A stretch of DNA of 64,000 nucleotides from Rathayibacter sp. Leaf185 (GTDB taxonomy: Bacteria > Actinomycetota > Actinomycetes > Actinomycetales > Microbacteriaceae): positions 132,575 through 196,574 of the forward strand of contig NZ_LMPP01000002.1 of assembly GCF_001423885.1 (NCBI RefSeq), in the 5' to 3' direction. Position 1 is the first letter of the stretch; every line of letters starts with the position of its first letter. Position numbers and translations under genes: made by a program. The notes under the pieces were generated by a model. The model was not told the origin of the DNA, did not search any database, and saw only the letters and a program-made list of their open reading frames with translations. Below are positions 30,457-45,777 of the stretch, one piece after another.

Positions 30457-30497
30457 CGAGCGGCTCCTTCAGTGCAGAGGTGGGATGAATCCCGCTA

Positions 30498-30509
30498 TGA
30501 ATCGTTTCA
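30498..30509. promoter_or_regulatory. LacI-family operator for the rhamnose genes
   Basis: TGAATCGTTTCA is palindromic about CG with one mismatch, the usual LacI-family form (TGAAACGNTTCA). It begins 5 nt after the -10 box of the rhaM promoter, covering the transcription start. Confidence 0.7.
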
Positions 30510-30514
30510 CCCGG

Positions 30515-30544
30515 AGCGTAGCGCGCGCCGCAGAGGCCTGTCAA
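30515..30544 (-). promoter_or_regulatory. rhaM-rhaI promoter
   Basis: On the minus strand: perfect -35 TTGACA (30544-30539), 18-nt spacer, -10 TACGCT (30520-30515). The start would fall inside the operator at 30498-30509. Confidence 0.7.
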
Positions 30545-30614
30545 AGCCGGGAACGCAGGTGCTCCCGATCCCGATGTCATACTTCCGGGACGCCCAGATC
30601 CCCGAGGAGGAGCC

Positions 30615-31604
30615 GTGCCGTCCGTGAGCATCCGCGACGTCGCCGCCCGAGCCGGGGTGTCGGTGGGCACTGTGTCGAACGTGCTCAACCGTCCCGAGAA
30701 GGTCGGCGGCGAGTCGGTCCAGCGCGTGCAGGAGGCGATCGCCGAGCTCGGCTTCGTCCGCAACGACGCGGCGCGGCAGCTCAGGGCCGGCCGCAGCCGC
30801 AGCGTCGGGCTCGTCGTGCTCGACGCCGGCAACCCCTTCTTCTCCGAGGTCGCGCGCGGCGCCCAGGCCAGGGCGGCGGAGGCGGGACTCTCGGTGCTGC
30901 TCGCGAGCACCGACTCCGACGCCGCCCGCGAGGACTCCTACCTCGACCTCTTCGAGGAGCAGCGCGTCAGCGGCGTCCTCATCTCGCCGCAGGGGGAGGA
31001 GTCGGCGCGCCTCGCCCGCCTCCGCTCGCACGGCATCCCCTGCGTGCTCGTCGACCGCGAGTCGAGCGATCCCGCGTTCTCGTCCGTGGCGGTCGACGAC
31101 ATCGCCGGTGGTCGCCTGGCCGTCGAGCACCTGCTGCAGCTCGGGCGCCGCCGCATCGCGGTGGTCGGCGGTCCGGAGTCGGTGCGCCAGGTCGCCGACC
31201 GCGTCGCGGGCGCGCGGCAGGCGGTCGCGGCCCTCGAGGGTGCGACTCTCGAGGAGATCCCGACCGACGCGCTCTCGGTGCTCGCGGGGCGCGAGGCGGG
31301 GCGCGCGATCGCCGAGCGCGACGCCTCCGCTCGCCCCGATGCGATCTTCTGCGCCAACGACCTGCTCGCGGTGGGCGTGCTGCAGGCGCTGGTGCTGCTC
31401 GGCGAGATCAGGGTGCCGGAGGATGTGGCGCTGATCGGCTACGACGACATCGCCTTCGCGACGGCGACCGTCGTGCCCCTGTCGAGCATCCGGCAGCCGA
31501 GCGCGCTGATCGGAGCGACCGCGGTCGAGCTGCTGCTCGATCCGGAGCCGCGCCAGGTCGTCTTCCAGCCCGAGCTCGTGATCCGCGCCTCCACCTCCGG
31601 CTGA
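30615..31604 (+). CDS. LacI-family transcriptional regulator, probable rhamnose repressor
   Basis: 329 residues. HTH: SIRDVAARAGVSVGTVSNVL (residues 5-24), then the hinge GFVRNDAARQLRAG and the sugar-binding-like domain ending in the dimer part. GAGGAGGAG lies just before the GTG at 30615. Divergent from rhaM with the operator between them, so it very probably represses rhaM-rhaI and itself. A hairpin follows the stop. Confidence 0.88.
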   Translation: MPSVSIRDVAARAGVSVGTVSNVLNRPEKVGGESVQRVQEAIAELGFVRNDAARQLRAGRSRSVGLVVLDAGNPFFSEVARGAQARAAEAGLSVLLASTDSDAAREDSYLDLFEEQRVSGVLISPQGEESARLARLRSHGIPCVLVDRESSDPAFSSVAVDDIAGGRLAVEHLLQLGRRRIAVVGGPESVRQVADRVAGARQAVAALEGATLEEIPTDALSVLAGREAGRAIAERDASARPDAIFCANDLLAVGVLQALVLLGEIRVPEDVALIGYDDIAFATATVVPLSSIRQPSALIGATAVELLLDPEPRQVVFQPELVIRASTSG

Positions 31605-31761: not shown

Positions 31762-33420
31762 ATGTCACTGCGCTCTCTCCTCCCCGTCGCCGCCCTCGCG
31801 GCGTCCGCCCTCCTGCTGAGCGGCTGCACCGCCGCCTCCGACGATGCCGGAGGCTCCTCCACCCCGGTCGCCGACGGCACGCTCACCTACGCGTCCGGCG
31901 ACGCCGAGCCCACCTGCCTCGACCCGCACGTCGGCGGCAACTACCCGCAGGCGCTGCTCGCCACGCAGGTGCTCGAGTCGCTGGTCTCGCGCGACGACAC
32001 CGGAGCGATCACCCCCTGGCTCGCCGAGTCGTGGACCGTCTCGGACGACGCGCTCAGCTACGACTTCACGCTGCGCGAGGGGCTCACCTTCACCGACGGC
32101 ACGCCGCTCGATGCGGAGGCGGTCGCCGCGAACATCGCGCACCTCCAGGACCCGGCGACCAAGTCGTCCACCGGCTACCTCGCCGTCGCGAAGGTCGCCA
32201 CCGTCACCGCCGTCTCGCCGACCGTCGCGCGCTTCACGCTCAGCGCGCCCGACAGTGCGCTGCTCGAGTCGCTCGCGCAGCCGTGGACCGCGATCGAGTC
32301 GCCCACCGGCATCGCCCGCGGCGAGGAGGCGAACTGCGAGGCGCCCGTCGGCACCGGCCCGTTCACCGTGACGGAGTGGGTCAAGCAGGACCACGTGACC
32401 CTGACCCGCAACGACGCCTACGACGCCCAGGCCGGCCCGACCGGCGACGGTCACGACGGCCCCGCCTACCTCTCGAGCATCACCTGGCGCTTCATCCCCG
32501 ACTCCGCCACTCGCTACGCCGCGCTGCAGGCCGGCGAGGTCGACGTGATCGACAACGCCCAGCCCGACACGCTCGCGGCGGCGACCGACGCCTCCGACCT
32601 GGTCGAGATCGACGCCCCGCGCCCCGGCTCGGTCAACCGCCTCGAGCTCAACTCAGGCCAGTCGCCGTTCGACGACCCGAGCGTCCGAGAGGCGTTCATC
32701 CGCGCGGTGGGTGTCAACGACGCGATCGACTCCCTCTTCTTCGGCACCGCCGCGCGCTCGTACTCGCCGCTGTCGAGCAGCGAGGCGACGGCCTACTCCG
32801 AGCCGTCTCTGTTCGAGGACGCCGGCTCCGACGACGAGGTCGCGGCGGCCGAGGACCTCCTCGAGGCGGCCGGCTGGGTCGACTCCGACGGCGACGGCAT
32901 CCGCGAGAAGGACGGGACGCCGCTCACGCTCCGCCTGCCCGTGAGCACCAACCAGTCCATCCCGGCCGAGCAGTCGCTGTTCGAGCAGATCCAGGCCTCG
33001 GCCAAGACAGCCGGCTTCGACGTGCAGATCAGCCTGCTCGACCTCTCGAGCTGGTATGCGGCGCTCGCGGCGAACGAGTACGAGCTGGTCAGCGCGCCAT
33101 ACACGAAGGTCGGCCCGGACGTCCTGCGCATCCTGTACTCGTCCTCGGGCATCACGCCGGCGCCGAGCGGCTACTTCGCGAACCACGCCCAGGTGTCCGA
33201 TCCGGCGCTCGACGCCCTGCTCGAGCAGGCGAGCGCGACGACCGACGAGGCCGAGCGTGCCGACCTGTACCAGCAGGCGCAGAAGATCGTGCTCGACGGC
33301 TACTGGATCCTGCCGCTCTACGACCAGCAGAACCACTACCTGCACCGTTCGGCCGTGCAGGGCGTCGCCGCCCTGGCGACCGTCTCGACCCCGTGGTTCG
33401 CGGACGCCTGGGTCTCGTAG
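31762..33420 (+). CDS. peptide-type ABC transporter substrate-binding lipoprotein (SBP family 5)
   Basis: 552 residues. A lipoprotein signal ends LLLSGC at residues 18-23. The mature protein has the SBP_bac_5 pattern: PTCLDPHVGGNYPQALL near the start, then LAESWTVSDDALSYDFTLREG and FTDGTPLDAEAV. It has two Cys and no Met after the signal. Proteins of this family bind peptides, glutathione, nickel or other small ligands; the ligand here is unknown, but the lack of Met and the nearby monooxygenases suggest an organosulfur compound. ATG 31762 is chosen because it directly begins the signal peptide; ATG 31717 would add 15 residues. Confidence 0.85.
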   Translation: MSLRSLLPVAALAASALLLSGCTAASDDAGGSSTPVADGTLTYASGDAEPTCLDPHVGGNYPQALLATQVLESLVSRDDTGAITPWLAESWTVSDDALSYDFTLREGLTFTDGTPLDAEAVAANIAHLQDPATKSSTGYLAVAKVATVTAVSPTVARFTLSAPDSALLESLAQPWTAIESPTGIARGEEANCEAPVGTGPFTVTEWVKQDHVTLTRNDAYDAQAGPTGDGHDGPAYLSSITWRFIPDSATRYAALQAGEVDVIDNAQPDTLAAATDASDLVEIDAPRPGSVNRLELNSGQSPFDDPSVREAFIRAVGVNDAIDSLFFGTAARSYSPLSSSEATAYSEPSLFEDAGSDDEVAAAEDLLEAAGWVDSDGDGIREKDGTPLTLRLPVSTNQSIPAEQSLFEQIQASAKTAGFDVQISLLDLSSWYAALAANEYELVSAPYTKVGPDVLRILYSSSGITPAPSGYFANHAQVSDPALDALLEQASATTDEAERADLYQQAQKIVLDGYWILPLYDQQNHYLHRSAVQGVAALATVSTPWFADAWVS

Positions 33421-33437
33421 CGCGCTGAAGCACGGGG

Positions 33438-33479
33438 ATCTCGAGACGCCCGCTGCGCGGGCTGCGGGCTCGACCAGCG
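33438..33479 (-). repeat. dispersed palindromic repeat, family A
   Basis: Read on the minus strand it begins CGCTGGTCGAGCCCGCAGC and ends in GGGCGTCTCGAGA, the same design as the copy at 33513-33552 but in the opposite direction. Confidence 0.65.
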
Positions 33480-33512
33480 AGCTGATGCTTCACTGAGCGC
33501 ACCGTGCCAGCA

Positions 33513-33552
33513 CGCTGGTCGAGTAGCCGCTGCACGCGGCGTATCGAGACCC
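33513..33552 (+). repeat. dispersed palindromic repeat, family A
   Basis: CGCTGGTCGAGTAGCCGC followed by TGCACGCGGCGTATCGAGACC: the best-preserved copy of family A in the window. With the copy at 33438-33479 it makes a facing pair (BIME-like) between the binding protein and first permease genes. Confidence 0.7.
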
Positions 33553-33626
33553 ACCGGCGTCAGCTCTGTGGACGGATCGCCGCCTTCCCCACCATGTGGA
33601 GGAGCCGCGCCGCTTCGAGTCCGCCA

Positions 33627-33659
33627 AAGTTGTCGTACTCGGCGGTCGAGTACGACAAC
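33627..33659. promoter_or_regulatory. perfect 14-bp inverted repeat before the permease genes
   Basis: AGTTGTCGTACTCG (33627-33640), spacer GCGGT, CGAGTACGACAACT (33646-33659). It lies 89 bp before the permease start. It could be an operator for an unknown dimeric regulator (GntR-like form) or an RNA hairpin that lowers expression of the downstream genes relative to the binding protein. Confidence 0.55.
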
Positions 33660-33747
33660 TCCTGGAGGTTCGAAGGGGCGGTCAGCAGGCACGCTCGACC
33701 GGGGGCAGGTGGACCCCGATCAGCACGGGACGGAGAGGAGGCACCGC

Positions 33748-34674
33748 ATGATCCGACGCGTGCTCGCACGCCTCGGCGGCGCGCTCGTCGTGCTGTGGGC
33801 CGTCGCGACGGCGGTGTTCTTCCTCATCCGGCTGATCCCCGGCGACCCGGCGCAGGCGATCCTCGGCGGGCCCGGCTCGCAGGCGTCTCCGGAGGCGCTC
33901 TCCGCCGTCCGCGCGGAGTACGGCCTCGACCAGCCCCTCCTCGCGCAGTACCTGACGCAGCTCGGCCGCCTCGCGAGCGGTGACCTCGGCACCTCCTACT
34001 CCCTGCGCACTCCGGTCGTCGACCTGCTCGGGCAGCAGCTGCCCGGCACACTCCTCCTCGCCGCTCTCGCCCTGACGCTCGCGTGGATCCTCGCGCTCGC
34101 GACCGCCCTCTGGTCGACCCGCGGCGGCCGCGTCGCCGCCGCCATCGGCGCCGGCCTCGAGCTGACGGCCGCCGCGCTGCCGCACTTCTGGCTGGCGACC
34201 GTGCTGATCGCGGTCTTCGCGACCGCGCTCCGCTGGCTCCCTCCCGTGAGCACGAACTCTCCGAACGGGCTCGTGCTGCCCGCCCTCACCCTCGCGATCC
34301 CGCTCGCCGGCTTCCTCGGGCAGGTGATGCGCCGCTCCCTGCTCGACGCTCTCGAGTCGCCGTTCGTGCTGGCCGCCCGCGCGCGCGGCGAGGGCGAGCT
34401 CGGGATCCGCCTCCGTCACGCCCTGCGCCACGCGGTGCTGCCGGGTGTCTCGCTCTCGGGCTGGGCGTTCGGCTACCTGATCGGCGGCGCGGTCGTCGTC
34501 GAGACGATCTTCGCGAGGCCGGGTCTCGGCCGCACGCTGCTCTCGGCGGTGACCGTCCGCGACGTGCCCGTCGTCACGGGAGTCGTGCTCGTCACCGCCC
34601 TCGCCTACATCGTCGTGACCCTCGCGACCGACGTCGTGACGCGCCTCATCGATCCGCGGCTGGTGCGCGCATGA
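33748..34674 (+). CDS. peptide-type ABC transporter permease 1 (DppB-like)
   Basis: 308 residues, six membrane segments. The N-terminal motif FFLIRLIPGDPAQAILGG and the later coupling region ESPFVLAARARGEGELGIRLRHALRHAVLPG are those of DppB/OppB permeases. GAGGAGG lies 7 nt before the ATG. It has one internal Met and no Cys. It forms an operon with the next two genes by 4-bp overlaps, while 327 nt separate it from the binding protein. Confidence 0.9.
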   Translation: MIRRVLARLGGALVVLWAVATAVFFLIRLIPGDPAQAILGGPGSQASPEALSAVRAEYGLDQPLLAQYLTQLGRLASGDLGTSYSLRTPVVDLLGQQLPGTLLLAALALTLAWILALATALWSTRGGRVAAAIGAGLELTAAALPHFWLATVLIAVFATALRWLPPVSTNSPNGLVLPALTLAIPLAGFLGQVMRRSLLDALESPFVLAARARGEGELGIRLRHALRHAVLPGVSLSGWAFGYLIGGAVVVETIFARPGLGRTLLSAVTVRDVPVVTGVVLVTALAYIVVTLATDVVTRLIDPRLVRA

Positions 34675-35501
34675 GCGAGCTCGAGCTGCGCGTCCCCCGC
34701 ACCCGCGCCGGCCGCCTCCGCCCCGGCGACCTGCTCGCCCTCGTCTTCGTCGCCCTGCTGCTGCTCGCGGCCCTCGCCCCCGGCCTGCTCGCGCCCGCCG
34801 ACCCCCTCGCGGTCGCGCCGACGGAGGCGTTCAGCCCACCGTCGCTCGCGCACCTGCTCGGCACCGACGAGTCGGGACGCGACGTCCTCAGCCGCCTGAT
34901 CGCCGGCGCCGGCGCCTCCCTCCTGATCGGAGCGAGCGCGACGGCCATCGGGCTCGCACTCGGCGCGGTGCTCGGGGTGGTCGCGGCGTTCGGCGGCCGC
35001 TTCGTCGACGGCGTGATCGGGCGGATCCTCGAGGTGCTGTTCGCGTTCCCCGCTCTGCTGCTCGCGCTGCTGGTGATCGTGGTCACGGGCCCCGGAGTCG
35101 TGCCCGCGACGATCGCGGTCGGCCTCTCGACCGCGCCCGGCTACGCCCGCATCCTGCGCACGCAGCTGCTGGGCATCCGCGACTCCGGCTACGTCGAGGC
35201 CGCGCGCGTGCTCGGCCACCCGCCGTTGAGCATCCTGGTCGGCACCGTGCTGCCGAACACCTTCGGTCCCCTCGCCGTGCTCGCGACGCTCGGGGTCGGC
35301 CAGGCGATCGTCTGGGCGTCGGCGCTCAGCTACCTCGGTCTCGGCGCCGAGCCGCCGGCTCCGGAGTGGGGCGCGATGCTGTCGGCCGGGCGCACGTACC
35401 TCGCGAGCGCATGGTGGCTGACGGTGTTCCCGGGGCTCGTGATCGTGCTGACGACGATCGCGACGACGGTGCTCGGCGGGCGACTGCGGGGTGCGCGGTG
35501 A
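34671..35501 (+). CDS. peptide-type ABC transporter permease 2 (DppC-like)
   Basis: 276 residues. The family block HLLGTDESGRDVLSRLIAGA at about residue 60 and the coupling helix GYVEAARVLGHPPLSILVGTVLPN are DppC-like. ATGA overlap with permease 1; one internal Met and no Cys. Confidence 0.9.
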   Translation: MSELELRVPRTRAGRLRPGDLLALVFVALLLLAALAPGLLAPADPLAVAPTEAFSPPSLAHLLGTDESGRDVLSRLIAGAGASLLIGASATAIGLALGAVLGVVAAFGGRFVDGVIGRILEVLFAFPALLLALLVIVVTGPGVVPATIAVGLSTAPGYARILRTQLLGIRDSGYVEAARVLGHPPLSILVGTVLPNTFGPLAVLATLGVGQAIVWASALSYLGLGAEPPAPEWGAMLSAGRTYLASAWWLTVFPGLVIVLTTIATTVLGGRLRGAR

Positions 35502-37072
35502 GCGCGGCGGTCGGCGGCGCCTCCGCGGTCGTCGTCGAGGGCCTGCGGGTCGCGTTCGACGGCGTCGAGGTCGTGCACGGCGTCTCGTTCCGCGTCGAGC
35601 CCGGCGAGTGCGTCGCGATCGTCGGCGAGTCCGGCTCGGGCAAGAGCGTCACCGCCCGGGCGCTGCTCGGGCTCGGCGGAGGCGCGGTGTCGGGCAGTAT
35701 CCGGGTCGGCGATCAGGAGGTGGTCGGCGCGAGCGAGCGGGTGCTGCGGCGCCGCCGCGGGGCCGCCGTCGGCTTCGTGCCGCAGGACGCGCTGCAGTCG
35801 CTCGACCCGCTGCGCCCGATCGGCCGCGAGATCGGCGACGTGCTGCGCCTGCACGGGCGGCTCCCGGCGGCGGAGGCGTCGCGCCGGGTCGCGGAGGCGC
35901 TCGCGAGCGTCGGCATGCCCGATCCCGTCGAGCGGATGCGGGACCGGTCGGGTGAGCTGTCCGGTGGTCTGCGTCAGCGGGCGCTGCTCGCCTCCGCGAT
36001 CGTGCTCGACCCGCCGCTGCTCGTCGCCGACGAGCCGACGACCGCGCTCGACGTCACCGTGCAGGCGCGCGTGCTCGAGCTGTTCGCCGAGCAGAAGGCG
36101 CGCGGCCGCGCACTGCTGCTCGTGTCGCACGACCTCGCCGTCGTGGCGGGGCTCGCCGATCGCATCCTGGTGCTCGCCGACGGCCGCGTCGTCGAGGAGG
36201 GGACCGCCGAGCAGGTGCTGCGCGCGCCGGTCAGCGCCGAGGCTCGGGCCCTCGTCGCCGCCGTACCGGCCGGGCGCCCGCGCGGGTCGCGGCTGACCGA
36301 CCCCGACGCGCCCGCGGTCGCGCCCGCGCCGCCCGGAGACGTCGTGCTGCGCGCCTCCGGGCTCGTCGCCCGCTTCGGCTCCCGGACCGCGGTCGACGGC
36401 GTGGACCTCGAGCTGCGGCGGGGCGAGACGCTCGGGCTGGTCGGCGAGTCGGGCTCGGGCAAGAGCACGGTCGCGCGTCTGCTGCTGGCGCTGCGGCGTC
36501 CCGATGCGGGGTCGGTCGAGTTCGCGGGCGAGGCGTGGTCCCAGGCGCGCGAGCGCGATCGCCGCCCGCTCCGTCCCCGCATCGGCGCGATCTACCAGGA
36601 CAGCCTGTCGTCGTTCGACCCGCGCTGGAGCGTGGGCCGCCTCCTGCGCGACGCCGGCGGACGCGGCGACGGGCCGCACGCCTCCGTGCCCGAGCTGCTG
36701 ACGAGCGTCGGCCTCTCACCGGCGCTGGAGCGGCGCTCGCCGCGGACCCTCTCGGGCGGGCAGCGGCAGCGGGTGTCGATCGCCCGCGCGCTCGCCTCGC
36801 GCCCCGACGTGCTGATCTGCGACGAGCCGGTGTCGGCGCTCGACGTCTCGGTGCAGGCGCAGATCCTCGACCTGCTCGACGATCTGCAGCAACGCTTCGG
36901 ACTGGCGCTGCTGCTGATCTCGCACGACCTCGGCGTGATCGCGCACATGAGCGACCGCATCGCCGTGATGCGCGACGGCCGCCTCGTCGAGACGGGCCCG
37001 GCCGCGTCCCTCCTCGCCGCCCCGCGCGAGGACTACACGCGCCGCCTGCTGGCCGACGCCCCGCGCCTCTGA
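35498..37072 (+). CDS. fused peptide-type ABC transporter ATPase (DppD-DppF fusion)
   Basis: 524 residues with two complete nucleotide-binding domains: Walker A GESGSGKS at about residues 48 and 318, signatures LSGGLRQR and LSGGQRQR, Walker B LLVADEPTTALD and LICDEPVSALD. Normally these are two proteins in Opp/Dpp systems; here one chain powers the importer. Starts GTG overlapping the permease stop. It ends 34 nt before the convergent flavoprotein gene. Confidence 0.9.
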   Translation: MSAAVGGASAVVVEGLRVAFDGVEVVHGVSFRVEPGECVAIVGESGSGKSVTARALLGLGGGAVSGSIRVGDQEVVGASERVLRRRRGAAVGFVPQDALQSLDPLRPIGREIGDVLRLHGRLPAAEASRRVAEALASVGMPDPVERMRDRSGELSGGLRQRALLASAIVLDPPLLVADEPTTALDVTVQARVLELFAEQKARGRALLLVSHDLAVVAGLADRILVLADGRVVEEGTAEQVLRAPVSAEARALVAAVPAGRPRGSRLTDPDAPAVAPAPPGDVVLRASGLVARFGSRTAVDGVDLELRRGETLGLVGESGSGKSTVARLLLALRRPDAGSVEFAGEAWSQARERDRRPLRPRIGAIYQDSLSSFDPRWSVGRLLRDAGGRGDGPHASVPELLTSVGLSPALERRSPRTLSGGQRQRVSIARALASRPDVLICDEPVSALDVSVQAQILDLLDDLQQRFGLALLLISHDLGVIAHMSDRIAVMRDGRLVETGPAASLLAAPREDYTRRLLADAPRL

Positions 37073-37106
37073 CCCCGGATCCCACTCCCGCCTCGGCGGA
37101 GGGCCG

Positions 37107-38276
37107 TCAGCCCGGCGGCCGCCCGACGCCGATCGACCAGGCGAGCGGCGGCGGCGTGCCGTTCAGCGCCCAGTCGCCCACGATCCGCTGCTTGTAGATC
37201 ACCGGGTTGTGCGCGCCGACGGTGCGCGCGTTGCGCCAGTGCCGGTCGAGCGCGGCGCCCGCGGCGACTCCGGAGGATCCGAGCGCGTCGAAGAGGAGGG
37301 TCGCGGCCCGCGGCACCGACTCGGTGAGCAGCACCTGCGCCCGGTACACCTCGGCGCCGGCCGCGGGCACGAGTGCGGGATCCGCCGCCGCATCGCCCAC
37401 CGCCTCCGCCGCGATCAGCACCGCGGCCCGCGCCCCGAAGGCGATCGCCGAGACCTCGCCGACGACCTCCTGGATCTGCGCGTCGTCGCGACCGTGGTCG
37501 GCCAGGCCGTGGCTGTACACGCGCGAGCGGGTGCGCACCGCGGCGACCGCATCCCGCTCGACCGCGGCGGCGATGCCCGCCAGCACGGCGAGCAGCTCGA
37601 GCTGGAAGAACGGAGTCTGGTGCGGTGCCCGCAGGATCGAGTCGAAGACGTGCTCCGGCTCGACGCGCGCGTCGGTGAAGACGGTCGTGCCGCTGCCCGA
37701 GAGCCGCTGGCCGAAGCCCGACCAGTCGTCCGTCGCGACGACCCCGGGCTGGTCGACCCGGATCACGACAGCGGTGTCGGTGCCGTCTTCGCGGCGCACC
37801 GTGACGTCGGTCCAGTCGGCGAAGATCGTGCCGGTGGAGTAGTACTTCGTGCCGTTGACGAGCAGCTCGCCGCCCCTCCTGGTGAGCGCGGTCTGCGTGA
37901 CGCCGACCGCAGCCGTGCCGATCTCGCTCCAGGCGTTGCCGACGAGCTCGCCCGCGGCCAGCCGGCGCAGCCAGCCGTCGCGCACGGTCGACGGAGGGAA
38001 GGACAGCTGGTCCTCGACGAAGGCGAAGTGACCGCGCAGCGCCTGAGCGACGTTCGAGTCCGCTGTCGCCAGCTCGATCAGGAGCGACGCGGTCTCGCGC
38101 AGGGTGAGCCCCCAGCCGCCGAACTGCGCAGGCACCCGGAGGCCGCCGAAGCGCGCCTCCCGCAGTCGGGCGATCGGCTCGAACGGCAGCTCCCGGTCGA
38201 GCTCGCGCCGGACGGCACCCGCGGCGATCTCGTCGAAGACCGGCCGGAACGCGGCCCGCGCCTCCCTGGCGCTCAC
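37107..38276 (-). CDS. acyl-CoA dehydrogenase-fold flavoprotein (DszC/SfnB-like monooxygenase)
   Basis: 389 residues. The acyl-CoA dehydrogenase fold is shown by FGGWGLTLRETASLLIELA, the FMN-binding type block ELVGNAWSEIGTAAVG, NGTKYYSTGTIFADW in mid-protein and RHWRNARTVGAHNP near the C-terminus (compare DszC, SfnB and their kin, which oxygenate thioethers or sulfones with reduced flavin rather than oxidise CoA esters). It lacks the acid base of true dehydrogenases in an obvious position. By reading it has no internal Met and no Cys. GTG start overlaps the upstream stop (GTGA). Confidence 0.8.
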   Translation of the reverse strand: MSAREARAAFRPVFDEIAAGAVRRELDRELPFEPIARLREARFGGLRVPAQFGGWGLTLRETASLLIELATADSNVAQALRGHFAFVEDQLSFPPSTVRDGWLRRLAAGELVGNAWSEIGTAAVGVTQTALTRRGGELLVNGTKYYSTGTIFADWTDVTVRREDGTDTAVVIRVDQPGVVATDDWSGFGQRLSGSGTTVFTDARVEPEHVFDSILRAPHQTPFFQLELLAVLAGIAAAVERDAVAAVRTRSRVYSHGLADHGRDDAQIQEVVGEVSAIAFGARAAVLIAAEAVGDAAADPALVPAAGAEVYRAQVLLTESVPRAATLLFDALGSSGVAAGAALDRHWRNARTVGAHNPVIYKQRIVGDWALNGTPPPLAWSIGVGRPPG

Positions 38277-39484
38277 GTGTACAGCGACAGCGGCTGCACG
38301 TCGCCGGTCAGGTAGTTCGCGCCGACCTCGAGCTTCTTGTAGTCCACGGGGTCGTGCAGCGAGTGGGTGCGCACGTTGCGCCAGTACAGGTCCAGGCCCA
38401 CCGAGCTCTTCGCGGAGGAGGAGCCGGTCGCCTCGTAGATGCGCGTCGTCACGTCGAGAGCGAGCGCATCCGTCACGATCTTCACCTTCGCGATCTCGAT
38501 CGCCTGGGCGGCGCGCGACTCGGCCGTGACGTCCCAGCCGCGGGCGATCTCGGCGTCGTGCAGCGCGCCCGCGCGGTCGGCCAGCGCCTCCGCGGCCGCG
38601 GTCTGAGCGACCAGCTCGCCGTAGAGCCGGCGCACGAAAGGATCCTGCGCGTACGTCTCGACGCCCGAGAGGAACCACGAGTTCTTGCGCGCCAGCGTCA
38701 GCCCGCGCCCCTTGGCGAGAGCGCCCTGCGCGATGCCGAGGTAGAGGTTGCCGAAGCCGAGCTGGATCGACGGCGTGACGAGTGTCGCGAACGGCTCGTC
38801 GACCAGCGCGCCGAGCACCTCCGACGCGTCGACGCGCACTCCCGTGAAGCGCACCGATCCGGAGGCGCTCTGCCGCTGCCCCAGGTAGTCCCAGTCGCCG
38901 AGCGGCTCGATCCCCTCGCGGTCGCGCGGGATCACGAAGGTCAGCGTCTCGCCGGCGCGGTCTCCGGAGGCGATCACCGCGTTCACCAGCACCGCGTCGC
39001 CCGAGGAGACACCGGTCGAGAAGCGCTTGAGGCCGTTCAGCTCGAAGCCGTCGCCCCGCGGAGTCAGCTCCAGATCCGGATCGACCGGGTTCACCGAGTC
39101 GCCCCAGAGCCACTGGCCCTCGATCGTCGCGCGGAAGAAGCGCTCGCGCTCGGAGGGCTGGGCCGAGAATGCGATGTTCGACGAGTTGACGTAGTGGTAC
39201 AGCAGGATCTGCGCGAGCGACGCGTCCGCGGAGGCGAGGATGCGGATCACCCGGAACGCCGTGCTCCAGACCGCGCCGCCGCCGCCGAACTCGGCCGGGT
39301 CGAGCAGATTCACCAGGCCGGAGGAGCGCAGCGGCTCGAGCTCGGCGGTCGGGTCGAGGTTGCCGCGGTCGCGGGCGAGGACGTCCTCGGCCAGGGTCTC
39401 GGCGACCCGGTACGCGATCGCGTCCCAGTGCTCGTGCTCGGCGGGGGTGGCGGTGTGGTTCCAGTGGGAACGCGGCTCGGTCAT
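38273..39484 (-). CDS. acyl-CoA dehydrogenase-fold flavoprotein (SfnB/DszC-like)
   Basis: 403 residues. Blocks include LNLLDPAEFGGGG-type N-terminal helix, GQWLWGDSVNPVDPDLELTP, NGLKRFSTGVSSGDAVLV, and DLYWRNVRTHSLHDPVDYKK at the C-terminus, as in SfnB (dimethylsulfone catabolism) and DszC. It has no internal Met and no Cys. It pairs with 37107-38276, and the two may form a mixed complex or act in sequence. ATG overlaps the stop of the LLM monooxygenase. Confidence 0.82.
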   Translation of the reverse strand: MTEPRSHWNHTATPAEHEHWDAIAYRVAETLAEDVLARDRGNLDPTAELEPLRSSGLVNLLDPAEFGGGGAVWSTAFRVIRILASADASLAQILLYHYVNSSNIAFSAQPSERERFFRATIEGQWLWGDSVNPVDPDLELTPRGDGFELNGLKRFSTGVSSGDAVLVNAVIASGDRAGETLTFVIPRDREGIEPLGDWDYLGQRQSASGSVRFTGVRVDASEVLGALVDEPFATLVTPSIQLGFGNLYLGIAQGALAKGRGLTLARKNSWFLSGVETYAQDPFVRRLYGELVAQTAAAEALADRAGALHDAEIARGWDVTAESRAAQAIEIAKVKIVTDALALDVTTRIYEATGSSSAKSSVGLDLYWRNVRTHSLHDPVDYKKLEVGANYLTGDVQPLSLYT

Positions 39485-40932
39485 CGTGCGGGCTCCGGTT
39501 CGAGATCGGGGAGGAGGCGGAGGACGCTGTCGGGCAGGCCGTCGGCCGCGCTGGGGCCGCCGGCGTAGGCGCCGCGGTAGGCGGCGGCGGGGTGCGACTC
39601 CGGCACGCGGACCTGGCCGGGGCCGCTGAGGTACTCGCGCAGGGTCGAGCCCTCGTACTCGTCCCAGACCCGGCCGCGACGGCGCAGCTCCGGCACAGCG
39701 AGGTCGACGAAGTCCTCGAAGGTGCCGGGGGTGACCACGTAGGCGAGGTTGAAGCCGTCGATGCCGGCGACGTCGACCCAGCGCTCGAGCTCGTCGGCGA
39801 CGGTGCTCGGCGAGCCGACGATCACCGGGCCGATCCCGCCGATGCCGAGGTACTCCGCGATGTCGTTCGGGGTCCAGGCGCGGTCGGGGTCGGCCTTGGT
39901 GAAGATCGAGAGGGCGCTGCGCACCGCATCCGTGTCGACGTAGCTGAGCGGCTCGTCAGCGGGGAACTGCGAGAGGTCCAGGCCCGACCAGCCGCCGTAG
40001 AACGCCATGGCTCCCTCGCGGGACGAGTAGGTCTTGTAGTCGGCGTACTTGGCCTGCGCCTCGGCGTCGGTCTCGGCCACGATCACCGTCGCGAGGATGA
40101 GGATCTTCGGATCCGTGCGCTTCCGTCCGTGCGCCTCGGCGCGGTCGCGGATCGCATCGGTGGTGCGCCGGGTCAGCTCGGGCTGGAGGGCGTTGATGAA
40201 GACGGCCTCGCCGTGCTTCGCCGAGAAGTCGATGCCGCGCGGCGAGGCGCCGGCCTGGAAGATCACGGGCGTGCGCTGCGGCGACGGCTCCGAGAGGTGG
40301 ATGCCCGGCACGCGGTAGTGCGTGCCGACGTGCCCGATCGGGTGCACCTTGCGCGGGTCGGTGAACACACCGCGCTCGCGATCGCGCAGCACGGCGCCCT
40401 CCTCCCACGAGCCCTCCCAGAGCTTGTAGGCGACGTCGAGGAACTCCTCCGCGATCTCGTAGCGCTCGTCGTGCGGGATCTGCCGCTCGAGTCCGAGGTT
40501 CTGCGCGGCGGACTCGAGGTAGGAGGTGACCACGTTCCAGCCGATGCGGCCCTTGGTGAGGTGGTCGAGGGTCGAGAGCCGGCGCGCGAGGGAGTAGGGC
40601 TGCTCGTAGGTGGGCGAGATCGTGACGCCGAAGCCGAGGTTCTTCGTGGCCGCGGCCATCGCCGGGATCTGCAGCAGCGGGTCGTTGACCGGCACCTGCG
40701 CCGAGTCGATCAGCGCGGGGCCGACGGAGCCGCGGTACACGTCGTACACGCCGAGCACGTCGGCGAGGAACAGGGCGTCGAAGGTGCCGCGCTCGAGCGT
40801 CTTCGCCAGGTCGACCCAGTACTCGAGGTCGTTGTAGCGGTCGGCCTGCGAGTCGGGGTGCCGCCAGAGGCCGGGTGCCTGATGTCCGACACAGGTCATG
40901 TCGAAGGCGTTGAGGACGATGCGGGACGCCAT
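39481..40932 (-). CDS. LLM-class FMN-dependent monooxygenase (NtaA/SnaA/DszA family)
   Basis: 483 residues. Typical blocks are LNAFDMTCVGHQAPGLWRHP at the N-terminus, FLADVLGVYDVYRG, KGRIGWNVVTSYLESAAQNLG, and VIFQAGASPRGIDFSAKHGEAVF. Relatives split C-S, C-N or sulfonyl bonds with FMNH2 and O2, supplied by a separate flavin reductase; none is in the window. First gene of a three-gene operon with the two acyl-CoA dehydrogenase-fold proteins (all overlaps 4 bp). Low in Met and Cys. Confidence 0.9.
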   Translation of the reverse strand: MASRIVLNAFDMTCVGHQAPGLWRHPDSQADRYNDLEYWVDLAKTLERGTFDALFLADVLGVYDVYRGSVGPALIDSAQVPVNDPLLQIPAMAAATKNLGFGVTISPTYEQPYSLARRLSTLDHLTKGRIGWNVVTSYLESAAQNLGLERQIPHDERYEIAEEFLDVAYKLWEGSWEEGAVLRDRERGVFTDPRKVHPIGHVGTHYRVPGIHLSEPSPQRTPVIFQAGASPRGIDFSAKHGEAVFINALQPELTRRTTDAIRDRAEAHGRKRTDPKILILATVIVAETDAEAQAKYADYKTYSSREGAMAFYGGWSGLDLSQFPADEPLSYVDTDAVRSALSIFTKADPDRAWTPNDIAEYLGIGGIGPVIVGSPSTVADELERWVDVAGIDGFNLAYVVTPGTFEDFVDLAVPELRRRGRVWDEYEGSTLREYLSGPGQVRVPESHPAAAYRGAYAGGPSAADGLPDSVLRLLPDLEPEPAR

Positions 40933-41209
40933 GTGTGTATCCGTTCGGTTCGCGAGTGCTCCGGATCGGACGTTAGGCGAGCGGGCGGACGGCCGTCGGA
41001 TCGCGGTGCAACCCGGCGTAACGAAGCGTCCCGCCCTAGCAGAACCGCCGCGCCCCGCCGCCGTGTTGCGTCGCGTGACGCTCCGTTGCGCTCGATGACC
41101 GGGTGGGTAGGACTCGGTCGAGGTCCACAGCCACGATGTGACGCGGCGACAGAGTCCTCCGGATCGACGGCGCCGTCACAGCATCCCCGACTCCCCGAAG
41201 CAGGCACTC
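40933..41209. other. intergenic region with divergent promoters, no gene seen
   Basis: 277 nt between the LLM operon (minus) and the ribose-type ABC operon (plus). I see no open frame worth calling and no convincing palindrome. Candidate -10 box TAACGT on the minus strand near 40975. A common regulator for both operons would bind here. Confidence 0.5.
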
Positions 41210-42250
41210 ATGCGATTCCGCACCCTCACCTCCGCGGTGGCGCTCCTCGCCGCCGCGACGCTGGTCCTCACCGGCTGCTCCCTGAAGGAGGAGTCCTCAA
41301 GCAGCTCCTCCGAGTCCTCGGCGAACGCCGCGGCGTCGACGACCTCCCTCGCCGACATCCCGAGCCTCGAGGGCAAGACGGTCGGCATCGCGGCGAAGGA
41401 CATCGTCCACGACTTCTCCCGCATCGTGTACCAGTCGGTGCAGGACCGCGTGAAGGAGCTCGGCGGCACCGTCGTCGCCACGCAGGCCGAGGCGAAGGAC
41501 GACAAGCACGTCTCGGACATCGAGAACCTCGTCTCGCAGAAGCCCGACGCGATCATCGTGATCCTCGGCGACGCGACGACTCTCGCGCCGGCGCTGAAGG
41601 AGGTGCACGACGCGGGCATCCCGCTGTTCACCATCGACAACGTGTCCGAGTACTCCGAGAACAACGTCACCAGCGACAACTGGCAGATCGGCTCGACCCT
41701 CGCCCGCACCATCGCCGAGGACATCGGCGGCTCCGGCCAGATCCTGGTCTTCAACGGCTTCCCCGGCGTCGCTCCGTGCCGCATCCGCTACAACGAGCTC
41801 AAGCTCGTGCTCGAGGACTACCCGGACATCCAGATCATCCAGCCCGAGCTGCAGGACAAGTACGAGGGCACGATCGAGGACGCGAAGCAGCAGATCGGCG
41901 ACGCCCTCTCGCGCTACCCGAAGGGCGAGATCGCGGCGATCTGGTCGTGCTGGGACACCCCGCAGATCGGCGCGGCCCAGGCCGTCGACGCGGCGGGCCG
42001 TGACGAGATCAAGATCTACGGAGTCGACGCCGACCAGGGTGCGCTCGATCTGATCGCCGACCCCGCCTCCTCCTACACCGCGACCGTCGCGCAGCAGAAC
42101 GTCGCCATCGGCGCCGGCTCGGCCGACAACGTCGCCAAGTTCCTCGGTGGGGAGGCCGACTCGGTCACCCCGACGACCTACTTCGCTCCGGTGCTGATCG
42201 ACAAGGCGAACATCGCCGAGAAGACCGCGGAGCTCGGTCTCAGTGAGTAG
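41210..42250 (+). CDS. ribose-type (CUT2) ABC transporter substrate-binding lipoprotein
   Basis: 346 residues. Lipobox LVLTGC at residues 18-23, then a Ser-rich linker and a periplasmic-binding fold of the RbsB/peripla_BP_4 type: LVSQKPDAIIVILGDATTLAPALKEVHDAGIPLFTIDN and GEIAAIWSCWDTPQIGAAQAV. No internal Met and two Cys besides the lipid Cys. Its ligand is unknown; sugars are usual for the family, but the composition and divergent monooxygenase operon suggest a sulfur-bearing compound. ATG 41210 begins the signal peptide. Confidence 0.88.
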   Translation: MRFRTLTSAVALLAAATLVLTGCSLKEESSSSSSESSANAAASTTSLADIPSLEGKTVGIAAKDIVHDFSRIVYQSVQDRVKELGGTVVATQAEAKDDKHVSDIENLVSQKPDAIIVILGDATTLAPALKEVHDAGIPLFTIDNVSEYSENNVTSDNWQIGSTLARTIAEDIGGSGQILVFNGFPGVAPCRIRYNELKLVLEDYPDIQIIQPELQDKYEGTIEDAKQQIGDALSRYPKGEIAAIWSCWDTPQIGAAQAVDAAGRDEIKIYGVDADQGALDLIADPASSYTATVAQQNVAIGAGSADNVAKFLGGEADSVTPTTYFAPVLIDKANIAEKTAELGLSE

Positions 42251-43757
42251 CGCGGCGCCGGCCCTCGTGATGGAGGGCGTCACCAAGTCCTTCGCCGGAG
42301 TGCCGGTGCTGCGCGGCGTCGGGCTCACCCTCGGCCGCGGCGAGGTCGTCGCGCTCGTGGGTGAGAACGGCGCCGGCAAGTCGACGCTGATCAAGATCCT
42401 CACGGGTCTGTACTCGGCCGACGCCGGATCGATCGCGATCGACGGAGCGCCGGTCGCGATCACGGCGCCGCGCGACGCCGAGCGGGCCGGGATCCGGGTC
42501 GTGCACCAGGATCGCCACCTCGCCGGCCGGCTCACCGTCGCCGAGCAGCTCTACCTCGGTCACGAGGGGCTGCGCCGCAGAGGCACGTCGGCGGAGGCGG
42601 TGCTCGGCGAGCTCGTCGGGCTCTCGGTCCGCGGCGACACCCTGGTCGACGACCTCACCGTCGCCGAGCAGCAGCAGCTGCAGATCGCGCGGGCGCTGCT
42701 CGTCGAGCCGCGCATCCTCGTGCTCGACGAGCCGACCGCGCCGCTGGCCGCCGCGGAGGTGGAGGCGCTGTTCGCGTCGATCCGCAGGCTCCAGGCGCGC
42801 GGCGTCTCGGTGATCTACATCTCGCACTACCTGCAGGAGGTGCAGCGCATCGCGAGTCGTGTGGTCGTGCTGCGCAACGGAGCCACTGTGGGCAGCATCG
42901 ACCTGATCGACGGCGACGCCGAGCAGGGCGCCCGGATCGTCGAGCTGATGCTCGGCCGCGATGTCGAGGAGTTCGCGATCCGCTCCGACCGGGTGGTCGC
43001 CTCCGATGTCGCCCCCCTGCTCGAGCTCGAGGCGCTCACCGTGCCCGGTGCGCTCGCCGCGCTCGACCTGGTCGTGCGGCCCGGCGAGATCGTCGGCGTG
43101 ACCGGCCTGGTCGGCTCCGGTGTCGACGTGCTGGCGGATGCCGTGGTCGGCCTGACCCGCCGCGGGGGCCGCGTGCGCGTGGCCGGCTCCGCGACCGCGA
43201 CTGCTCGCGCCTTCGTCGCCGCGGGTGGCGGCTACGTGCCCAGCGACCGGCGCCGCGACGGCGTGCTGGTGGCGCACACGATCAGGGAGAACCTCTCGAT
43301 CGCCTCCCTCTCGCGGATCAGCCGGTGGGGCGTCCTGCCCAGCCGTCGACGCGACCGGGCTCTGGCCGTCGAGCAGATCGCCGCGCTGGACGTGCGGCCC
43401 GCGAACCCGGAGGCCGTTGTCGGCACGCTCTCGGGCGGCAACCAGCAGAAGGTCGCCATCGGCAAGTGGCTCGCCGCCGAGTCGCGGGTGTTCGTGCTCG
43501 ATCAGCCCACCGCCGGTGTCGACGTCGGTAGCCGCGCCGCGATCTACGCCCTGGTCAACCGCCTCGTCGACGAGGGCGCCGGCATCCTGCTCGTCTCGCT
43601 CGACCTCGAGGAGCTCGTGGGCCTCGCCGACCGCGTCGTGGTGCTGCACCGCGGCGAGGTGCGCGCCGAGCTGCCGCGCGCCGAGCTCAGCATCGACCGG
43701 GTGCTCGCGATCGCCTCCGGCGCTCTTCTGCCGGGATCACTGGAGGCCGCATCATGA
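42243..43757 (+). CDS. ribose-type ABC transporter ATPase (two domains)
   Basis: 504 residues of the RbsA/MglA type. Domain 1 has Walker A GENGAGKST at about residue 40 and Walker B ILVLDEPTAPL; domain 2 has the degenerate nucleotide site usual in the family (GLVGSGVDVLADAVVG) and signature LSGGNQQKVAIGKWL. The signature of domain 1 is altered (TVAEQQQLQIARAL). GTG start overlaps the binding protein stop by 8 bp. Two internal Met, no Cys. Confidence 0.92.
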   Translation: MSSAAPALVMEGVTKSFAGVPVLRGVGLTLGRGEVVALVGENGAGKSTLIKILTGLYSADAGSIAIDGAPVAITAPRDAERAGIRVVHQDRHLAGRLTVAEQLYLGHEGLRRRGTSAEAVLGELVGLSVRGDTLVDDLTVAEQQQLQIARALLVEPRILVLDEPTAPLAAAEVEALFASIRRLQARGVSVIYISHYLQEVQRIASRVVVLRNGATVGSIDLIDGDAEQGARIVELMLGRDVEEFAIRSDRVVASDVAPLLELEALTVPGALAALDLVVRPGEIVGVTGLVGSGVDVLADAVVGLTRRGGRVRVAGSATATARAFVAAGGGYVPSDRRRDGVLVAHTIRENLSIASLSRISRWGVLPSRRRDRALAVEQIAALDVRPANPEAVVGTLSGGNQQKVAIGKWLAAESRVFVLDQPTAGVDVGSRAAIYALVNRLVDEGAGILLVSLDLEELVGLADRVVVLHRGEVRAELPRAELSIDRVLAIASGALLPGSLEAAS

Positions 43758-44764
43758 CCCTCACCGCCACGCCCCCGCAGACGGAGGCTGATGCCGCGCC
43801 GCGCGCACGTCGCCGCGGCATCGGAGCGCTCGCCCTGATCGGCTACCTCGTCGTCCTCGTCGAGATCGTGCTGTTCAGCGTGGCCTCGCCGGTCTTCGCG
43901 ACGGGCGGCAACGTCTCGACGATCCTGATCCAGGCGGTCGTGCCCGCGATCGCGGGCTTCGGCCTGGCGATCGTGGTGATCACGGGCGGCGACGACGTGG
44001 TCCGCGGAGGCATCGACCTCGCCTCCGGCCCGATCGTCGGCCTCTCGGGGGTCGTCGCGGCCGTCGCGCTGACCGCCGGTCTCGGAGCGATCCCGGCCGT
44101 GCTGCTCGCCCTGCTGGTCTCGGTGGGCTTCGGAGCGATCAGCGGCACCGCCGTCACCCTCGGGCTCCGCCCGCTGCTGGCCACGCTCGCCGTGTCCGGC
44201 ATCGTCGGCTCCGTGGTCTTCCTCGCCACCGACAATGTGAAGGTGCCGGTCGCCGATCCGCTGTTCGACTGGCTGCGGGGCGGTGCGGTGCTCGGCGTTC
44301 CCGCGCCGGTCGTGGTGCTCGCGGTGGTCACCGTGGTGACCGCGCTCGCCGTCGGGCGGACGCCGTGGGGGACCCGCAGCTACGCGGTCGGGCAGAACCC
44401 GACGGCGGCGAGCGTCGCGGGCGTGCCCGTCTGGCGCTACGTCTTCACCAGCTATCTGCTGTCGGGGCTGCTGGCGGGGATCGCGGGCCTGCTGCTCGCC
44501 GCCCGCCTCGCCGCCGCGGTACCCGGGATCGGCAACCAGATCCTGCTCGACATCATCGTCACCGCCTACCTCTCGGTCGTGTTCTCGCGCCGCTTCGTGG
44601 TGACCATCGGAGGCACGCTGCTCGCCGCGGTCTTCGTCGCCGCGCTCGGCAACGGCTTCACCCTGATCGGAGTCGACAGCCAGTGGGTCGGCGCGATCAA
44701 GGGGCTTCTCATCCTGCTCGTCCTCGGCCTCGCGGCACTGCGAGAGAGAGGGGTCCGCTCGTGA
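43754..44764 (+). CDS. ribose-type ABC transporter permease 1
   Basis: 336 residues with about eight to ten membrane segments of the RbsC family (BPD_transp_2). Blocks: FGLAIVVITGGDDVVRGGIDLASGPIVGL and GTRSYAVGQNPTAASVAGVPV. By reading it has no internal Met and no Cys at all, very unusual in a membrane protein of this size. ATGA overlap with the ATPase gene. Confidence 0.9.
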   Translation: MTLTATPPQTEADAAPRARRRGIGALALIGYLVVLVEIVLFSVASPVFATGGNVSTILIQAVVPAIAGFGLAIVVITGGDDVVRGGIDLASGPIVGLSGVVAAVALTAGLGAIPAVLLALLVSVGFGAISGTAVTLGLRPLLATLAVSGIVGSVVFLATDNVKVPVADPLFDWLRGGAVLGVPAPVVVLAVVTVVTALAVGRTPWGTRSYAVGQNPTAASVAGVPVWRYVFTSYLLSGLLAGIAGLLLAARLAAAVPGIGNQILLDIIVTAYLSVVFSRRFVVTIGGTLLAAVFVAALGNGFTLIGVDSQWVGAIKGLLILLVLGLAALRERGVRS

Positions 44765-45777
44765 CCGCGCTCGCCGTCCTGCCCGTCGGAGAGTCGCGCC
44801 GCGCCCTCGCCGTCCGCCTGCTCGCCCCCGCGACCGTCGTGGTCCTCCTCGCCGTCTTCGGCGCCGGCGTCCCCGGCTACTTCGCGCCGACCAACCTGCT
44901 CAACGTGGCGAGCGCCGGCGCCCTCCTGCTGATGGCGGCCTGCGCGATGACCCTCGTGGTCCGCGCGGGCGGCATCGACCTCTCGATCGGCATCGCGATC
45001 GACCTGGCCGCGCTGGCCGCGACGGCGCTGATCGCCGACGGCTACGTCACCTGGTTCGCGGTCCTGCTCGGGCTCGGCTTCGGGATGCTCGCGGGCGTCG
45101 TGAACGCGGTGCTGGTGATCGTCTTCCGCATCCGCGCGTTCCTCGCCACTCTCTCGGTCTGGTTCATCGGCACCAGCGCGCAGCAGCTGCTCACCGGCGG
45201 CGGCGCGCCGATCTACCTGCGCCGCCAGGAGACGCCCGACGCGTTCGCCGCCTGGGGCAACGCGACCGTTCTGGGCATCGGAACGCCGGTGCTGCTGGCC
45301 GTCGCCGTCGCCGTCGTGGTCTGGCTGCTGCTCGACCACACCCGCTGGGGCCGCGTGCTGACCGCCGCGGGGGAGCAGCCGGGAGCGACGCGGATCGCCG
45401 GGCGGCGCGTGGGGATCTCGCTCGCCTCCGCCTTCATCGTCGCGGCGCTGATCGGTGCGCTGGCCGGGATCGTGCTCGCCTCGCGCAGCTACGGCTTCTC
45501 GCCGGCGAGCGGCCAGCTCTACGTGCTCGACGCGATCGGGGCGGTGTTCATCGGAGCGACCCTCTCCGCGCACGGGCGGCCGAACGTGCTGGGCACCGCG
45601 ATCGGCGTGCTGATCTTCGGCCTGATCAACAACGGACTCGTGCTGCTCGGCGTCTCGTTCTACTGGCAGGGTCTGGTCCGCGGCTCCGTGCTGCTGCTGC
45701 TCCTGCTGGCCACGTCGCTGCTGCGCCGCGAGTCGATCGCGCCGCCGCTGCGGACGCTGCTGTCGTCGCGGAGCTGA
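44761..45777 (+). CDS. ribose-type ABC transporter permease 2
   Basis: 338 residues of the same family: CAMTLVVRAGGIDLSIGIAIDLAAL and GRVLTAAGEQPGATRIAGRRVG. GTG start overlaps the stop of permease 1. Three internal Met, one Cys. Two different permeases suggest a heterodimeric membrane domain. Last gene of the operon. Confidence 0.9.
   Translation: MTALAVLPVGESRRALAVRLLAPATVVVLLAVFGAGVPGYFAPTNLLNVASAGALLLMAACAMTLVVRAGGIDLSIGIAIDLAALAATALIADGYVTWFAVLLGLGFGMLAGVVNAVLVIVFRIRAFLATLSVWFIGTSAQQLLTGGGAPIYLRRQETPDAFAAWGNATVLGIGTPVLLAVAVAVVVWLLLDHTRWGRVLTAAGEQPGATRIAGRRVGISLASAFIVAALIGALAGIVLASRSYGFSPASGQLYVLDAIGAVFIGATLSAHGRPNVLGTAIGVLIFGLINNGLVLLGVSFYWQGLVRGSVLLLLLLATSLLRRESIAPPLRTLLSSRS

Follow-up and report, generated by a model that had tools for sequence, protein, structure and literature searches.

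A run of eleven genes lies at positions 31762-45777 of a 64,000-nucleotide stretch of the Rathayibacter sp. Leaf185 genome (hereafter the window; G000:C2:132575-196574, 72% G+C, from a draft genome of 4.1 Mb). The run falls into three blocks: a peptide-type importer on the forward strand, a luciferase-like monooxygenase (LLM) gene followed by two genes for flavoproteins of the acyl-CoA dehydrogenase (ACAD) fold on the reverse strand, and a CUT2-type importer on the forward strand that starts divergently from the LLM gene. We consider the locus a probable scavenging module for organic sulfur. Its parts are as follows, where M+C stands for internal Met plus Cys.

31762..33420, forward: SBP_bac_5 binding lipoprotein of the peptide/nickel-type importer, 552 residues, 0 internal Met, 3 Cys
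33748..34674, forward: OppB-type permease, 308 residues, M+C 1
34671..35501, forward: OppC-type permease, 276 residues, M+C 1
35498..37072, forward: OppDF-type fused double ATP-binding protein, 524 residues, M+C 6
37107..38276, reverse: acad2, ACAD-fold flavoprotein on the SfnB/MsuC side, 389 residues, 0 internal Met, 0 Cys
38273..39484, reverse: acad1, DszC-like ACAD-fold protein, 403 residues, 0 internal Met, 0 Cys
39481..40932, reverse: NtaA/DmoA-family FMN-dependent monooxygenase (the LLM), 483 residues, M+C 4
40933..41209: divergent intergenic region with the words TGTGACG and CGTCACA, both over-represented ahead of the corresponding genes in relatives; no Rfam match
41210..42250, forward: RbsB-like CUT2-type binding lipoprotein, 346 residues, 0 internal Met, 3 Cys, polyol-type pocket
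42243..43757, forward: RbsA-like CUT2 double ATP-binding protein, 504 residues, M+C 2
43754..44764, forward: CUT2 permease 1, 336 residues, 0 internal Met, 0 Cys
44761..45777, forward: CUT2 permease 2 (BPD_transp_2), 338 residues, M+C 4

The most striking property of the locus is its poverty in sulfur amino acids. An earlier note, made from the letters of this DNA, had counted about 14 Met and 10 Cys in some 4,460 residues, and the count holds exactly: the eleven proteins comprise 4,459 residues with 14 internal Met and 10 Cys. Both ACAD-fold proteins and the permease at 43754 are indeed free of internal Met and Cys, and both binding proteins, peptide-type and CUT2, are free of internal Met, as the note had claimed. 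Background values were drawn from 52 stretches of the host genome (1.04 Mb), which together with the window cover 27% of the 4.1 Mb; a custom simple gene caller gave 983 gene calls, 685 of them at least 200 residues long. The sample is non-random, with six stretches placed on LLM paralogues, two beside the window and the remainder spread by hand. Met+Cys made up 0.540% of the locus, compared to a mean of 1.752% (standard deviation 0.290) in 214 equal-length windows, none of which was as low. The run as a whole therefore lies at the low tail, where the note had expected it, although its proteins taken singly do not all do so: their Met+Cys percentiles are 0, 0, 0, 3.9, 5.5, 6.6, 10.9, 17.7, 19.3, 29.3 and 31.2. 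Eight proteins of at least 300 residues in the sample have neither internal Met nor Cys; three are in the locus and three in a second locus described below.

Such a composition could arise with no selection, as a by-product of high G+C or of the make-up of transporters. The G+C content of the window (72%) and the low His content of the locus (depletion z -2.3) would fit this explanation. So would a sugar importer at 60-63 kb, which had been called normal: its binding protein is normal (10 Met in 436 residues), whereas its two permeases are low (0.93% and 0.99% Met+Cys). Ribosomal proteins (by reading, L061) and a pair of large L082 proteins make up weaker low runs, and Met+Cys poverty alone is thus no proof of a sulfur role. 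However, Met is the most strongly depleted of all 20 residues at the locus (z -3.7; Cys, -1.6), and Lys, Asn, Ile, Tyr and Phe all stay within one standard deviation of background. The depletion is also kept among acad1 homologues, of which 20 of 23, at 41-96% identity, have no internal Met or Cys; the other LLM genes of the host genome that were compared, by contrast, hold 1.3-3.2% Met+Cys in six cases out of seven (the seventh, in L057, 0.69%; two weak LLM matches lie outside this count). A mere by-product is hardly credible in the face of these comparisons.

Comparisons between homologues bear this out. An LLM paralogue in the same genome, 58% identical, has 1.75% Met+Cys, and DmoA (6ak1) has 18 internal Met+Cys over the 466 positions where the LLM of the locus has 4. 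All 12 RbsB orthologues of at least 67% identity lack internal Met; those of Arthrobacter-type loci are less extreme in overall content (1.08-1.65% Met+Cys). When module genes (homologues of at least 47% identity, or 36% for L108) were set against all remaining genes pooled, the importer, enzymes and other genes had 0.59%, 0.35% and 1.49% Met+Cys in Rathayibacter loci, 0.94%, 0.55% and 2.46% in Arthrobacter-type loci, and 0.50%, 0.06% and 1.69% in Frigoribacterium loci. A 40% CUT2 homologue among genes that read as sugar kinases (L108, in genome G081) has 1.78%. The sulfur-sparing composition is real and conserved across homologues.

A second line of evidence comes from the remainder of the genome sample. 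The five next-lowest windows all overlap a single run, L078:2129-14259 (G000:C3:342129-354259), whose 11 genes encode 12 Met+Cys in 3,982 residues (0.30%). This run encodes an SsuD/SfnG-like LLM, an ACAD-fold protein, a rhodanese-type sulfurtransferase, a flavin reductase, a peptide-type importer (its binding protein related to TIGR04028), an ApbA/PanE-like (ketopantoate-reductase-like) protein, a GlcD-like FAD oxidase and a hydrolase, with a LysR gene adjoining. Judged by content, the sample thus has sulfur-acquisition loci as its two lowest runs. Elsewhere, L057:9641-12255 holds an LLM gene beside a MetY-like gene (by reading), each with 0.69% Met+Cys; this is possibly a third sulfur locus. 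The two adjacent large proteins at L082:14514-19578 (0.38% Met+Cys) seem, by reading, to have no link with sulfur.

The enzymes of the locus are related to known sulfur monooxygenases. The LLM scores 549.4 bits with the NtaA/DmoA family (TIGR03860; curated cut-off 279.7) and is 58.8% identical over 466 residues to DmoA of Hyphomicrobium sulfonivorans, a member of the same family. The nearest solved relatives of acad1 are DszC/TdsC and MsuC (5xb8, 3x0x, 6u76), and acad2 matches MsuC weakly. The nearest relatives of the enzymes are thus C-S-cleaving or S-oxygenating monooxygenases (DmoA, TdsC/DszC, MsuC), in line with the SfnB/DszC-like reading of the earlier note, and neither flavoprotein reaches the SfnB or DszC cut-off. 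Unlike DszC/TdsC and MsuC, the flavoproteins here accompany a DmoA-like LLM and a sugar-type importer. A related LLM (65-68%) in L148:9386-12415 (turned to the LLM strand) and L149:9082-14384 is accompanied by a second LLM and a flavin-reductase-like gene, to which L149 adds a MetY-like gene (by reading); this is another context of the same monooxygenase type.

Characterized systems offer a guide to what such enzymes may do together. In Acinetobacter baylyi, according to an excerpt of PMC13352529, the ACAD-fold proteins Dms1-3 convert dimethyl sulfide (DMS) to its sulfoxide (DMSO) and sulfone (DMSO2), after which an SfnG-type enzyme yields methanesulfinate, MsuC methanesulfonate and SsuD sulfite. 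The same excerpt describes the host of DmoA as using DMS for carbon, energy and/or sulfur, with a flavin reductase, DmoB, encoded next to DmoA. Excerpts of PMC8557817 report a sulfur-sparing response in Rhodococcus IGTS8 together with SsuD, SfnG and nitrilotriacetate-monooxygenase-type proteins. For Gordonia alkanivorans 135 grown on dibenzothiophene, excerpts of PMC11852219 give a 393-fold rise of an acyl-CoA dehydrogenase mRNA; the protein with the next accession belongs to the NtaA/DmoA family and appears with SfnB in the proteome table, a likeness at the level of families. The importers named in these portions of the two papers are of Ssu, Tau, Met, cystine or sulfate types, in contrast to the sugar-type importer here, and the words 'sugar' and 'ribose' do not occur in either main text.

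The link between a CUT2 importer and such enzymes, which the earlier note had called unusual, is kept across several genera. Nine of the 15 genomes of the genus have a close rbsB match, and the same nine have acad1 (at least 75% identity); among the other eight carriers, the two genes are divergent neighbours in seven and lie on separate contigs in the eighth (G012). An RbsB alignment search gave 21 named loci, of which 9 are contigs of genomes already in other comparisons. In 16 of the 21, acad1 lies near rbsB: five are from Rathayibacter, two from Frigoribacterium, seven from Arthrobacter, Zafaria or Paeniglutamicibacter (genera which we take to be Micrococcaceae), one from Leucobacter and one from a metagenome bin. 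In all seven Arthrobacter-type loci the genes share one strand in the order rbsB-A-C-C-LLM-acad1(-acad2). By comparison, the peptide-type importer is tied to the module only by adjacency, here and in G005, and by its low Met+Cys; the top NCBIfam match of its lipoprotein (31762..33420) is TIGR04028, under the cut-off of that family.

In the wider family the enzymes stay together and the importer is exchanged. The enzyme pair (acad1 at 60% identity or more, LLM at 70% or more, limits chosen after viewing the lists, in which the next acad1 was at 56% and the next LLM at 69%) was present in 14 of 199 family genomes. These divide evenly and with no overlap: seven match the CUT2 importer at E 1e-100 or better, and the other seven match a CUT1-like importer of the SBP_bac_1 type at E 1e-60 or better; neither importer was found at those limits in the remaining 185, the nearest being the L108 homologue in G081. 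Only the best candidates were scored per genome, and the genomes are not independent. The CUT1-like importer is unrelated to CUT2, is divergent from the LLM gene and has 0.51-1.21% Met+Cys, and one genus (g18) contains one genome of each kind. Since two exchangeable sugar-type importers accompany a fixed enzyme pair, both should serve the same substrate class, and that class should be sugar-like.

This pattern bears on the proposal that the enzymes attack small thioethers or sulfones of the DMS type that diffuse into the cell, with the importers serving for unrelated sulfur sources, for instance peptides. The similarity to DmoA and the presence of a peptide-type importer would suit such a scheme, as would the oxidation of DMS to DMSO2 by the ACAD-fold Dms1-3 of Acinetobacter baylyi (excerpt of PMC13352529). 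Yet all 14 carriers of the enzyme pair in the family sample have a sugar-type importer of one kind or the other, and both kinds match sugar-binding proteins, which makes diffusing substrates an unlikely account.

Regulatory elements in relatives point in the same direction. A match to the SAM-I riboswitch (RF00162), which senses S-adenosylmethionine (SAM), lies upstream of rbsB in all seven Arthrobacter-type loci, where importer and enzymes are on the same strand. Four of the seven exceed the gathering score of 44.4 bits and three fall below it, at 41.1-42.9 bits. The seven leaders share a common core sequence, and 93% of cells in their alignment are paired; covariation is modest, in that the four pairs changed on both sides were matched by 103 of 500 shuffles. 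A model built from these leaders finds a further SAM-riboswitch-like copy between LLM and acad1 at L169:16221-16311 (85.1 bits with this model; in the Rfam scan the copy stayed below the gathering score) and otherwise weak matches (15-19 bits) in L097, L136 and L140. No riboswitch passed the gathering score in the window, L078, L137, L140, L142, L143, L149 or L168, and none was found at E 0.05 in L158, L170 or L171. Genes with SAM riboswitches rise in sulfur-limited Pelagibacter, according to an excerpt of PMC5069961.

For the 30 upstream regions compared, a search for an inverted-repeat operator by exact 5-bp dyads gave nothing convincing. The word TGTRACG occurs in 13 of the 30, compared to 18 of 595 regions of the own-genome sample (the 18 include the two of the window), but this enrichment is only a lead because the 30 regions are related. 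The longer word GTRACGAA is present in two intergenic regions of that sample; the one outside the window stands beside a nitrite-reductase-like gene (by eye), and the word may therefore be unrelated to sulfur.

The CUT2 importer itself consists of a Peripla_BP_4 lipoprotein, a double ATPase and BPD_transp_2-type permeases, the set that defines its class. Its binding protein, ATPase and permease 1 fall under the cut-off of every CUT2 NCBIfam equivalog (ribose, xylose, autoinducer-2 and others) among the matches listed, which for the ATPase are the best 25 of 184. The top structural matches of the RbsB-like protein are the allitol-binding 4wt7 of Agrobacterium vitis and 3l49 of Rhodobacter (47-48% identity), and 8 of 10 sugar/polyol pocket residues taken from a portion of PMC10318746 are unchanged. 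The two exceptions are shared by the entire clade: Asp64 is replaced by Ser or Gly and Arg89 by Ala (4wt7 numbering) in 34 of 34 sequences from about 25 genomes, the window protein having Ser and Ala. L108 retains both residues, as do 4wt7 and 3l49 when read from the alignments. A role of the two internal Cys of RbsB as a site special to sulfur ligands was considered and rejected, since L108 and 3l49 have both of them and 4wt7 has one. A more distant relative, 4ry8 of Thermotoga lettingae (TLET_1677), is known here by its title as a 5-methylthioribose transporter solute binding protein; at 26% identity it is far below 4wt7 and 3l49, and it was compared in fold and one pocket position.

These relatives raise the question of whether the importer serves an ordinary carbon source, such as rhamnose, and stands beside a sulfur operon by chance. 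Its nearest solved relatives bind sugars or polyols, and immediately upstream of the locus, at 28895-31604, lie genes that by reading resemble those for L-rhamnose isomerase and mutarotase, together with a gene for a LacI-type regulator, itself with 0 internal Met. Among eight relatives, however, a rhamnose-gene match was found only in L092. Each of 21 further CUT2 binding proteins from the genus (one per locus, the only component compared) has 2-9 internal Met, and the binding protein here has none. Importer and enzymes also co-occur in genus and family genomes, and all seven Arthrobacter-type loci have them on one strand behind a SAM-riboswitch-like leader. A carbon importer placed here by chance is thus quite improbable.

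The conserved composition, the CUT2 link, the importer swap and the SAM-riboswitch-like leaders of relatives, all directly legible in the sequences, together with the nearest relatives of the enzymes support the sulfur-sparing organosulfur scavenging proposed in the earlier note. We put a probability of roughly 0.78 on the locus being a sulfur-starvation scavenging module for sugar-like organosulfur compounds that works by flavin-dependent S-oxidation and C-S cleavage. The order of steps, the substrate class and the regulation in this strain are what we infer. The compound imported by the CUT2-type system would be an organosulfur molecule that resembles a sugar or polyol, most likely one with a neutral sulfur group, e.g. 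a thioether. In the cytoplasm, its sulfur may be oxygenated by the DszC-like flavoprotein (38273-39484), and the DmoA-like LLM (39481-40932) may then cleave the bond between carbon and sulfur. A sulfinate-type or side product may be oxidised by the second flavoprotein (37107-38276), after which an SsuD-like enzyme, e.g. that of L078, could free sulfite. The L078 flavin reductase could supply reduced flavin mononucleotide (FMNH2), and the adjacent peptide-type importer might widen the diet in this strain. This logic likely follows, by analogy, the DMS route of Acinetobacter baylyi (excerpt of PMC13352529). Synthesis under sulfur shortage would explain why the proteins of the locus contain hardly any Met or Cys.

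Would the imported compound instead be a sugar or polyol that bears a sulfonate group, for example sulfoquinovose or one of the products of its breakdown? Carriers of the module include, from general knowledge, plant and soil genera, some LLM-fold enzymes are known to cleave sulfonates, and the CUT1-like importer matches the sulfoquinovosyl-glycerol-binding SmoF, among many sugar-binding proteins. But the LLM is nearest to DmoA rather than SsuD, two S-oxygenating flavoproteins would be left without a clear task, and loss of Arg89 takes away a positive charge, although some clade members have acquired an Arg at the position of His61. A sulfonate is accordingly a minority prospect, well behind a sugar-like compound with neutral sulfur.

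Among neutral compounds, methylthioribose is a fair candidate, suggested by the title of 4ry8 and by gene content. The host genome has the methylthioadenosine/S-adenosylhomocysteine (MTA/SAH) nucleosidase, maker of methylthioribose, and a search of that genome gave no match for mtnK or mtnA; methylthioribose would otherwise be a dead end. This argument is weak, since other bacteria also lack the two genes. A bolder proposal, which we hold only tentatively, would be a previously undescribed oxidative salvage of sugar-like thioethers, with 5-methylthioribose as the leading candidate: a CUT2 or CUT1-like importer would feed the fixed enzyme pair without MtnK/MtnA, two unrelated importers having been recruited and purged of Met and Cys.

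Several observations weigh against a sugar-like scavenging module, in addition to the Met/Cys-poor ribosomal and L082 proteins. Four of the eleven proteins are singly unremarkable in Met+Cys (the other seven lie below the 11th percentile). The SfnB cut-off of TIGR04022 (430.9 bits) was missed by acad2 (250.5) and acad1 (244.8), and the DszC cut-off of NF043015 (850) by acad1 (274.3) and acad2 (93.0). While DmoA has DmoB next door, family matches revealed no flavin reductase among the 11 genes; one is present in the separate locus L078. No LLM-fold (group C) enzyme tested in Acinetobacter baylyi oxidised DMS, as reported in the excerpt of PMC13352529. The peptide-type importer adjoins the module only here and in G005 among eight relatives compared, the CUT2 importer is apart from the enzymes in four Plantibacter loci and one Microbacteriaceae genome, and no LLM was found in the fetched 10 kb around two Frigoribacterium loci. 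The compared genomes are related, and the counts are not independent events. Finally, Rfam gave no SAM-I match in the window and the seven-leader model found no leader in the host genome (best 18.7 bits, E 0.19), so this strain must rely on a different control.

Organic compounds hold much of the sulfur of aerobic soils. Apart from sulfonates, dimethyl sulfide and fuel thiophenes, little is established about what DszC-, SfnB- and DmoA-type enzymes act on in nature. Swappable sugar-type importers beside such enzymes, with SAM-riboswitch-like leaders in relatives, point to thio-sugars as a usable sulfur pool. Known enzyme types and a known sulfur economy appear, from gene content, to be newly joined to sugar-type importers recruited for sulfur; an importer that resembles an ordinary sugar importer seems to have been given over to the acquisition of sulfur. 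Titles and abstract openings in the literature, covering few subscription papers, held no description of a CUT2 importer tied to such enzymes. In another vein, the results suggest that a low Met+Cys content can serve as a marker of genes for sulfur acquisition, among them importers that would be annotated as carbon uptake.

A few smaller features were seen along the way. The segment at 33430-33560 of the window, between oppA and oppB, resembles a dispersed repeat (by eye). The LLM gene of L098 (G004) reads as two overlapping frames in its draft assembly. In G012, a 199-residue protein with no internal Met or Cys and no Pfam match is encoded directly after acad2 (L146:11082-11681).

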